Positions 17,351-40,612 of a DNA stretch of 64,000 nt are shown here, piece by piece. Source of the DNA: Arthrobacter pigmenti (GTDB lineage Bacteria; Actinomycetota; Actinomycetes; Actinomycetales; Micrococcaceae). The position numbers and the translations under genes were made by a program. The stretch lies in the NCBI RefSeq assembly GCF_011927905.1, contig NZ_JAATJL010000001.1, forward strand, positions 2,604,001 through 2,668,000, in the 5' to 3' direction. The first letter of the stretch is position 1, and every line of letters begins with the position of its first letter. Under the pieces are notes generated by a model, which saw only the letters and a program-made list of their open reading frames with translations, was not told where the DNA came from and made no database searches.

Positions 17351-17442
17351 AACGATTCCGCGCAGGTTCGGCGTGCGTCCTCCCACGATCATCGGCGTGT
17401 TCCCCGTCGACACGCACCTGCGCACTTCAAACCTGCACGGAA
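17351..17442 (+). repeat. 92-bp dispersed structured repeat, copy A
   Basis: The element starts AACGATTCCGCGCAGGT and ends AAACCTGCACGGAA, so its ends pair as a long stem. An inner CGTGT/ACACG pair forms a second hairpin. A copy of identical length lies at 40521-40612 on the minus strand with the same ends, the same inner arms and a diverged spacer. It lies between lacI and ptrB and is oriented with transcription. Function unknown. Confidence 0.75.
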
Positions 17443-29590: not shown

Positions 29591-29664
29591 CTCCGCCGAT
29601 TTGCCCGGTGCTCGCGCCCGATCCTTCCCGCCCGGTCTCGATCGATGCACCCACTCAATCGCCC

Positions 29665-29700
29665 GGTTCACTGGGTATGTCTAGACATGCCCAGTGAACC
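29665..29700. repeat. 36-bp palindrome at the 3' side of the DUF559 gene
   Basis: GGTTCACTGGGTATGTCT is followed by its reverse complement with one mismatch that a G-U pair would tolerate in RNA. The core TATGTCTAGACATG is shared with a second 36-bp palindrome at 30659-30694. The stop codon of the DUF559 gene lies inside it. Confidence 0.85.
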
Positions 29701-30546
29701 GCCGGATTCGATGGGAGCACTTGCGCGGATGTGCGTGCCTCGGTGAGCGGCGAGCGTCTGCTGAACCATTTTGAGATACGCCTCAGGACGGTCCACGACT
29801 TGGCCGCGGGTCACACGCAGGACCGGGACACCACCCACTGTGAGCAGGTTCCAACGACGACGGTCCTCTTCGAACTCCACCGGCCCGCTGTGATATTCCC
29901 TTCCATCGGCTTCGATTCCGAGGATCCCGTCGACGAAGAGATCCAGCCGCCCAACCCCCTTCACATAGACCTGGGACTGAACGGCGAGCCCGGCTTCTCT
30001 GAGTGGATATCGCGCGACGGTCTCAAGTATGGACTGTGAGTGCGGGTCTACGAGGCTTATGATCCGACGCAGTGGCGCATCCCGTTTACCGCCGGTACTG
30101 CTTCGGAGTTGCTCGAGTGAAACCAGCCGCCTCACAACTGCGGACTCGACAATACAGAGCGCATCTAGCTCAGGCAGGCACCGCATAACCTGCAGGCAGA
30201 TGAGCAGAGGTGTTACCGGCCGCGCTGCCCGATGCACCCGGACGTCCGGCCCGACCTGGCGCGCTTGGTCGAAGCACACGTGCAAGAGCGTTGGTTTGCG
30301 CAGCACCCACAGGTTGAGTCGCTCGGCGGCGCTGATGCAGGCAAGCTCCCCGCCCATCGCCGCAGCTGCAATCCTTCCGCGGTCGGCGTCCGGCAACGCG
30401 TAGATTCCGCGTCTTGCCTTGGCTACCCTACGTTCCTCCAGTGCGCGCTGAAGCTTCCTCGCACTGATTCCGGCAGCAACCAGGTCGCGTCTGCGGCAGA
30501 CTCCTCCATGCAGGATCAGCACGTTCTCAATCTCCATGGGATCCAT
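29668..30546 (-). CDS. AbiEi-like N-terminal domain fused to a DUF559 (Vsr-like) nuclease domain
   Basis: This 292-residue protein starts with the winged-helix region found in type IV antitoxins of the AbiEi type (VLILHGGVCRRRDLVAAGISARKL; RGIYALP). It ends with a DUF559 domain of the Vsr/PD-(D/E)xK group, where RLDLFVDGILGIEADGREYH supplies the acidic residues and DRRRWNLL follows. No AbiEii-like toxin is adjacent. Such solitary proteins are common in actinobacteria and their role is unknown. Two 36-bp palindromes bracket the gene. The start may be ATG 30546 or 30537. Confidence 0.8.
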   Translation of the reverse strand: MDPMEIENVLILHGGVCRRRDLVAAGISARKLQRALEERRVAKARRGIYALPDADRGRIAAAAMGGELACISAAERLNLWVLRKPTLLHVCFDQARQVGPDVRVHRAARPVTPLLICLQVMRCLPELDALCIVESAVVRRLVSLEQLRSSTGGKRDAPLRRIISLVDPHSQSILETVARYPLREAGLAVQSQVYVKGVGRLDLFVDGILGIEADGREYHSGPVEFEEDRRRWNLLTVGGVPVLRVTRGQVVDRPEAYLKMVQQTLAAHRGTHIRASAPIESGGSLGMSRHTQ

Positions 30547-30658
30547 GGTGGCCGAGTCAGCCGACGCGCGGGGACGAACCCACTCCTATGTGGAAAAGTC
30601 GCCCCAGATCGATATTGGGCCGCACGTAGGACGCACACTATGCCCCACCGAATCATAG

Positions 30659-30694
30659 GTTTCACGGGGTATGTCTAGACATACCCCGTGAAAC
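30659..30694. repeat. 36-bp perfect palindrome at the 5' side of the DUF559 gene
   Basis: GTTTCACGGGGTATGTCT and its exact reverse complement abut. It shares the 13-bp centre TATGTCTAGACAT and overall design with the palindrome at 29665-29700. It lies upstream of the DUF559 gene and downstream of paaZ. Confidence 0.88.
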
Positions 30695-30732
30695 GTCGGA
30701 GTCGGTGGGTTGATTCACGCGCCGAAGCGAGG

Positions 30733-40474: not shown

Positions 40475-40520
40475 TATAAAGAATCGCACGGGGTGCGGGA
40501 GGGGTCAACCGGGTCCTTCA

Positions 40521-40612
40521 TTCCGTGCAGGTTTGCGGCGGCCCGGCGCGTGTCGGACCGCGACACGCCGAGATTACGACGACGGCGCCCGCCAGACCTG
40601 CACGGAATCGTT
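40521..40612 (-). repeat. 92-bp dispersed structured repeat, copy B
   Basis: On the minus strand it begins AACGATTCCGTGCAGGT and ends AAACCTGCACGGAA, as in copy A at 17351-17442. A 13-bp perfect outer stem (40520-40532 with 40596-40608) encloses an inner hairpin, GCGTGTCG (40548-40555) with CGACACGC (40561-40568). It lies just after the ABC-F stop and may terminate that transcript before the paaJ promoter. Confidence 0.75.

Follow-up and report, generated by a model that had tools for sequence, protein, structure and literature searches.

The stretch of DNA that we analysed (the window, 64,000 nucleotides) covers positions 2,604,001-2,668,000 of the single-contig, 3.79-Mb genome of Arthrobacter pigmenti and holds two copies, A and B, of a polar palindromic element. 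The first-pass annotation had described two 92-bp sequences, 17351-17442 and 40521-40612, with common ends and CGTGT/ACACG arms. Coordinates and blocks were verified and both sequences are there at that length, but the repeated core is 87 bp (17356-17442 and 40521-40607). Copy A (17356..17442, minus strand; E 1.4e-19 with model R1, whose training set includes copy A) lies between the genes for a LacI-family regulator (stop 17331) and an S9 peptidase (start 17487), as named by Pfam. Its outer arms, 17356..17370 and 17428..17442, pair at 13 of 15 positions around an inner hairpin, CGGCGTGT/ACACGCA (17393..17416). Copy B (40521..40607, plus strand) has as its Pfam-assigned neighbours the genes for an ABC-transporter-type ATPase (stop 40626) and a thiolase (start 40427); its outer arms, 40521..40535 and 40593..40607, pair at 14 of 15 positions, and its inner hairpin is GCGTGTC/GACACGCC (40547..40570). 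Polarity was set by the position of the hairpin, which makes A a minus-strand and B a plus-strand copy, the reverse of the frame used in the earlier annotation. Both copies fold more stably than shuffled sequences on both strands (z -3.1 to -4.5). Rfam matched no family in the window at the gathering score, and a search of six loci at E up to 1 returned only a tRNA and one sub-threshold miRNA match, in agreement with the earlier view that the repeat belongs to no named family.

Searching the whole genome with the 14-mer AAACCTGCACGGAA, allowing up to 2 mismatches, returned 35+36 matches against 4+2 for the reversed control, so the repeat exceeds chance. Most of these matches combine as the two ends of full-length copies, of which there are 19, each 86-87 bp long and all of a single stem type; model R1, itself built from them, recovers them all. 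The family consists of polar intergenic elements of about 90 bp in which a lineage-specific outer inverted repeat surrounds the nearly invariant inner hairpin. With the hairpin turned to the left, a copy runs from CGA through outer arm TTCCGTGCAGGTTTG and 11 variable positions to CGGCGTGTC; after a loop of 6 bases comes GACACGCCG, which about 22 variable positions separate from CAAACCTGCACGGAA and TCG. Each copy departs from this plan in a few changes. The hairpin lies 26 bp away from one element end and 37 bp away from the opposite end. An extension of the outer stem by 3 bp, CGA/TCG, is common, its positions being complementary in 16, 14 and 9 of the 19 copies. These triplets are mostly present in the flanks of the 19 copies, beyond which there is no constant base and no GTAG or CGTC tag at the palindrome end. 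The same copies gave no sign of target-site duplication (direct matches averaged 3.26, against 3.45 when flanks were swapped), and inspection by eye found none of the end motifs of attC sites.

Several variants accompany the full-length copies. Two 99-bp relatives (L032 16541-16639 and L033 15235-15333) have the same outer arms and a different interior that lacks the GCGTGTC hairpin, and a 56-bp near-perfect hairpin (L034 2135-2190, genome 280134-280189) carries the same arm stretch, GTGCAGGTTTG. In two pairs of copies one spacer is shared almost completely and the other is not: L044 4273-4359 and 9864-9950 (21/22 in one spacer, 8/11 in the other), and L048 2645-2731 and L050 2460-2546 (11/11 in one, 7/22 in the other). 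At three places (G006 C1:93923-94518; G003 C20:89441-89799; L130 2433-2769), between three and five elements follow one another in tandem, spaced about 119-135 bp apart from start to start.

Of the earlier proposals, that of a selected DNA or RNA structure, to be recognized by further copies in relatives and by compensatory changes in the stems, is supported. Elements occur in 33 of the 38 genus genomes. Across species the inner hairpin is nearly invariant, and the outer stem is wholly different between lineages and still largely self-complementary. In alignment A4, 87.7% of cells pair, against 73.8% when shuffled and 33-47% in slid registers, and double changes affect 16 of the 18 outer pairs. 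Alignment A6, which was fitted to the model and counted over 127 distinct rows that include opposite-strand duplicates, holds 551 double-change cells against 213 when shuffled, distributed over all 18 outer pairs. Arm complementarity in 60 elements picked for stem score (3 of 63 were dropped) averaged 12.8 for an element's own arms, 10.4 when arms were swapped within one stem type and 5.1 when they were swapped between types. This covariation appears between lineages: on the 19 own copies alone, RNAalifold recovered no more than 10 outer pairs and hardly any covariation. A signature of an RNA strand was also sought in the wobble cells and rejected. Although a smaller set of 46 rows gave 43 G.T and 26 A.C cells, the larger set of 117 rows (30 of 147 having been dropped as opposite-strand duplicates or identical rows) gave 113 and 94 (p 0.21), with no strand preference, so selection on DNA fits better than selection on one RNA strand.

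One pair of elements in this genome, the 63-kb unit, encloses a gene for a 274-aa protein (P0001). Pfam matched AbiEi_4, DUF559 and MTES_1575 in this protein, and PADLOC reported an AbiEi match. It is predicted to combine an AbiEi-type winged helix with a Vsr/homing-endonuclease-like domain: the fold matches of its predicted model are AbiEi (6Y8Q), I-Bth0305I (3R3P) and Vsr (1CW0). Acidic and His residues are invariant across 28 proteins, and by predicted fold and these conserved residues the domain fits a Vsr/EDxHD nuclease; in P0001 the predicted catalytic residues are E215, D217 and H222. Pfam found no transposase domain in the framed gene. A Y1/RAYT transposase in the genome was considered and rejected, since Y1_Tnp had no match at E 0.01, a threshold at which 6 of 14 control genomes gave one. 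Neighbouring ORFs, viewed by eye without a profile scan, included no obvious AbiEii partner.

The arrangement of gene and elements recurs across the genus. Among 31 loci, drawn from 37 genes listed at at least 47% identity (the other 6 genes and two short fragments had no locus), 30 carry elements on both sides of the gene within 1.5-kb flanks, as detected with model R2; the exception, L128, has no element. Model R2 was built on 46 elements of many species, with training elements from 20 of the 31 loci, and at the loci without training sequences 10 of 11 are framed. None of 29 S9 peptidase control loci is framed on both sides, and 4 have an element on one side. The framing copies are direct repeats, and their stronger strand is always antisense to the gene. 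Gene and element also co-occur: each of the 30 genomes that have the gene holds one or more R2 matches, against 3 of the 8 that lack it (Fisher p 1.1e-4). In three of the 30 (G011, G018 and G022) the relatives are only partial or broken, and the three gene-less genomes with elements are G003 (6 matches; an 84-aa gene fragment is kept), G019 (4) and G023 (1). Within the A. pigmenti genome, the solo copies carry the stem of the 63-kb unit, and 17 solo copies are of this stem type. The repeat that frames the enzyme gene is also that of the solo copies. The same likeness between solo copies and their own units is seen in G002, G017 and G037 (rows L102, L095, L086 and L087). Between species the nuclease gene is mostly syntenic, most of the compared loci falling into a few groups that share both flanks.

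The window itself contains a second system of this kind (29650-30709). Its enzyme gene is a 292-aa ORF at 29668..30546 on the minus strand, the third homologue of the nuclease gene, whose product is 37% identical to P0001, matches AbiEi_4 above the cut-off and scores 37.3 bits for MTES_1575, just below the cut-off of 38.2. Palindromes lie at the 3' end of the gene (29650..29715, outer arms CCCACTCAATC/GATTCGATGGG around CGGTTCACTGGGTATGTC/TAGACATGCCCAGTGAACCG) and upstream of it (30644..30709, outer arms CCCACCGAATC/GAGTCGGTGGG around GTTTCACGGGGTATGTC/TAGACATACCCCGTGAAAC), the inner parts being located by script and the outer arms by eye. The two have the core GGTATGTCTAGACATRCC in common and differ in their arms, and the downstream one overlaps the 3' end of the ORF. 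With up to 2 mismatches this core occurs in 5 of 38 genomes and in none of the control; it frames the counterpart gene in G035, and in the A. pigmenti genome only the two framing copies were found.

More distant relatives of the nuclease were surveyed by a de novo inverted-repeat search for alike stems on both sides of the gene. The best 80 of 190 relatives all came from Arthrobacter, Pseudarthrobacter and Paenarthrobacter records, and 77 of them (3 were too short) provided named loci. Matched stems framed 28 of these 77 loci, against 6 of 77 control windows; as the likeness was made stricter, the counts went from 28 to 22 to 17, against 6, 2 and 0 in the controls. A class-wide sample contained relatives in 58 of 197 genomes. 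The first count there was 13 of 30; after the removal of three loci truncated at the end of a contig, among them one false match, and of the A. pigmenti gene itself, 11 of 26 uncut loci were framed, against 0 of 30 S9 controls, and stricter stem likeness left 9 and 8 of 26. New stems at the distant loci include GGGGCACTTTG, CGTCACGCC and GATCGTACTGAC. In most distant relatives this search found no matched stems (49 of 77 named and 15 of 26 class-wide loci).

Single sites were also compared between species. For copies A and B, as for four further own copies, both flanks align with those of a copy in G035 and/or G037; the partner of A is in G037, and those of B are in both genomes. In this comparison of 6 sites (9 pairs), which were found by the models, so that lost copies are missed, and which leaves out a cluster at 66-70 kb, the arms are 79-80% and the inner hairpin 85-91% identical, against 44-46% for the flanks and 40-43% for the spacers and loop. 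These sites are shared by descent, so the copies are not young insertions. Site A is empty in G035, G036, G012 and G017, and in G026 and G028 it holds an element of another stem type in unchanged orientation to the S9 gene. The copies are thus old and maintained, yet sometimes gained or lost.

Compensatory change, so extensive between lineages, was only partly borne out at these single sites. Outer pairing amounts to 11-15 of 15 positions in the own copies and 10-14 of 15 in the nine partners. Compensation is complete for copy B in G037, where both arms have changed, from TTCCGTGC/GCACGGAA to TTTCTCGC/GCGAGAAA, with 14 of 15 pairs, and for the own TTCC/GGAA block at the 740 kb site, which is AAAA/TTTT in G037 and nearly so in G035. 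In contrast, A in G037 and B in G035 have one arm changed only, leaving 11 of 15 pairs each. Six of the nine partners pair at only 10-11 of 15 positions because one arm is of another subtype: a GTGC arm is joined to a GCGAG arm, or the reverse, with loss of pairs, in A in G037, B in G035 and both partners at 3361 kb and at 740 kb. Pairing at each site is therefore not strictly kept. It would seem that halves of two stem subtypes are being combined, among some own copies as well, and the hybrid arms together with the sharing of single spacers make exchange between half-elements possible.

The genomic placement of the copies was examined with a home-made codon-usage gene caller. Among the 19 own copies, 17 lie between genes, and the remaining 2 overlap only a gene start that is probably misplaced (for S9, homology puts the true start later; for the second gene this was assessed by eye). 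A gene 3' end lies within 50 bp of 14 of the 19. The earlier statement that the copies are oriented with local transcription is true of A and B but does not extend to their family in this genome, of which 8 copies have convergent, 8 co-directional and 3 divergent neighbouring genes. On a larger scale, 86 of 116 listed matches (E up to 1e-4) from nine genomes with a long chromosome contig formed 67 clusters, which are not independent among related species. Counted in fifths from the origin to a terminus assumed opposite dnaA, they are distributed 16/21/21/7/2, and the terminus-proximal 40% holds 9 of 67 (p 4e-6), or 9 of 51 when the A. pigmenti genome is excluded (p 9e-4); G002 has two clusters near the terminus. 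An orientation bias with replication direction was tried and rejected (33 of 67 clusters co-directional).

How do these elements compare with known repeats? RAYT genes are largely inherited vertically. REP/REPIN repeats with their RAYT (TnpA-REP) enzymes resemble the present system in the framing of the gene, the solo copies near gene ends, the co-evolution of repeat and enzyme and the vertical descent of the gene. As set out in PMC3733652, REPtrons comprise an endonuclease gene framed by cognate palindromes, with solo copies in intergenic gaps near gene 3' ends, and part of PMC8266576 describes the co-evolution of REP repeat and RAYT enzyme types. The REPtron enzyme, however, is of the HUH/Y1 type, whereas here it is a winged-helix, Vsr-like protein; the element here is about 90 bp with two stem tiers and no GTAG tag, its framing copies are directly repeated and it has no replication-strand bias. 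Because the enzyme is not HUH, the tag is missing and the framing copies are direct repeats, we do not file the system as a REPtron, although we hold that it works like one. CGTC-tagged REPs, for which the available portion of PMC3733652 reports no dedicated transposase, are also intergenic palindromes but differ from the present elements, which are much longer, have no constant CGTC tag and are linked to a nuclease gene. The EDxHD/Vsr-like homing endonuclease I-Bth0305I and Vsr itself differ from the protein described here, which has an AbiEi-type N-terminal part and palindrome framing and whose gene was not seen in an intron or split site. The AbiEi antitoxin of the type IV toxin-antitoxin system AbiE is alike in the N-terminal part (6Y8Q; PADLOC AbiEi), which is here fused to a predicted nuclease. 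ERIC and other long imperfect intergenic palindromes are, like this family, about 100 bp long, palindromic, intergenic and present in many copies. ERIC is not known to have a linked enzyme gene, and it also differs in sequence and phylum. In the literature that we searched, mostly without subscription journals, a partnership of this kind between an enzyme and its own repeats was not found described, nor did any paper found there join DUF559 with 'repetitive extragenic palindromic'. The portions available of the literature on DUF559 and MTES_1575 contained no link to repeats, and among the matches listed from the broader literature no title or abstract dealt with such a system.

Taken together, the existence of an element family with inverted repeats in two tiers, its framing of the gene and co-occurrence with it, and its conservation at fixed sites lead us to think it on balance probable that this system is REP/RAYT-like but has an unrelated enzyme, of the PD-(D/E)XK type, at its base, with copy A a solo member of the repeat population of a trans-acting endonuclease gene. 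Transcription terminators or mRNA 3'-end structures that end or protect transcripts, with a link to the nuclease by descent only, would suit the intergenic copies, the 8 of 19 that lie between convergent genes in gaps down to 10/7 and 20/3 bp, and the frequent 3' ends nearby. We nevertheless judge this unlikely. No terminator-like site lies on copy A or B (one weak site, 40485-40497, is outside B), and the intrinsic feature of a stem followed by a T-run is absent from both, the other copies having been judged by eye only. Moreover, 3 of 19 copies lie between divergent genes, the wobble cells have no strand preference, a terminator needs no fixed length, invariant inner hairpin or framing of one gene family, and REPs are placed likewise, as stated in part of PMC3733652. 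Distinctly improbable, in our view, is that the elements are binding sites of an AbiEi-nuclease acting as a regulator or addiction module, the framing copies being operators and the solo copies decoys or protected sites. The AbiEi-type fold, the dyad TGTC...GACA in both window systems and the presence of copies on both sides of the gene would agree with it, but an operator has no need of a palindrome with two tiers and 87 bp, or of a copy past the end of the gene; moreover, the genome has 17 solo copies of the stem type at other places, and the nuclease residues are invariant.

Terminal inverted repeats and dispersed intergenic copies are what ordinary MITEs of a DNA transposon, with the outer arms as its ends, would have; this is very unlikely given the lack of target-site duplications and of a Pfam transposase domain in the framed gene, and given that at syntenic sites it is the interiors that differ and the arms and inner hairpin that stay alike, contrary to what neutral decay of a MITE would leave. 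The 66-70 kb region (L031 6392-10523, genome 66392-70523) has two direct-repeat copies around about 4 kb of genes, while at the same junction G035 has a single element and lacks the 4 kb, and G037 has two elements around a glutaredoxin gene. Such a picture would be expected of attC-like recombination sites of gene cassettes, but it comes from one site only, and simple recombination between repeats gives the same picture. The ends of attC sites read RYYYAAC...GTTRRRY, and with no such motifs seen here we give this explanation the slightest chance of all. Terminator activity and operator function are both compatible with the REP-like reading and do not exclude it.

Under the REP/RAYT-like reading, the AbiEi winged helix would bind the element, with the inner TGTC...GACA repeat as a common signal and the outer stem as a lineage-specific one, and the Vsr/EDxHD-like domain would nick or cut it. 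Nuclease activity may once have spread copies into the gaps beside gene 3' ends, and it may let the stem of a whole population shift together with its enzyme; selection acting on the DNA would keep those copies that persist. The parts of this scheme that we infer are cutting, mobility and host benefit: linkage, co-occurrence and fold suggest that the nuclease acts on the element, and that it moves the element is suggested more weakly, as neither a target duplication nor a young insertion was found. Against the reading stand the pairing that is not strict at each site, the mostly syntenic gene, the 3 of 8 gene-less genomes with elements, the bare locus L128 and the majority of distant relatives in which no matched stems were found, and the depletion of elements near the terminus is outside what it accounts for. 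A recount that included the hybrid arms left our estimate unchanged because the covariation between lineages is independent of those sites. A broader proposal, in which our confidence is short of even, is that Actinobacteria may have a categorically separate repeat-endonuclease partnership. In it, a chromosomal nuclease of the winged-helix/Vsr type would recognize its own dispersed palindromes through the inner hairpin that all of them share and through an outer stem that can be retargeted freely; it would rewrite that stem throughout the population, one half-element at a time and in step with its own change, and would keep copies at fixed sites outside the terminus region.

The enzymes known for REPIN-like populations are of the HUH class. 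How such repeat populations last for millions of years in bacterial chromosomes is described as an open question in PMC8049555. If our reading is true, an unrelated class of enzyme has come to a like layout, which would mean that such partnerships arise repeatedly and would make their purpose testable. A role would be suggested, too, for the AbiEi-DUF559/MTES_1575 proteins, with relatives in 58 of the 197 genomes sampled from the class, and a nuclease would become available with a target stem that varies naturally from species to species.
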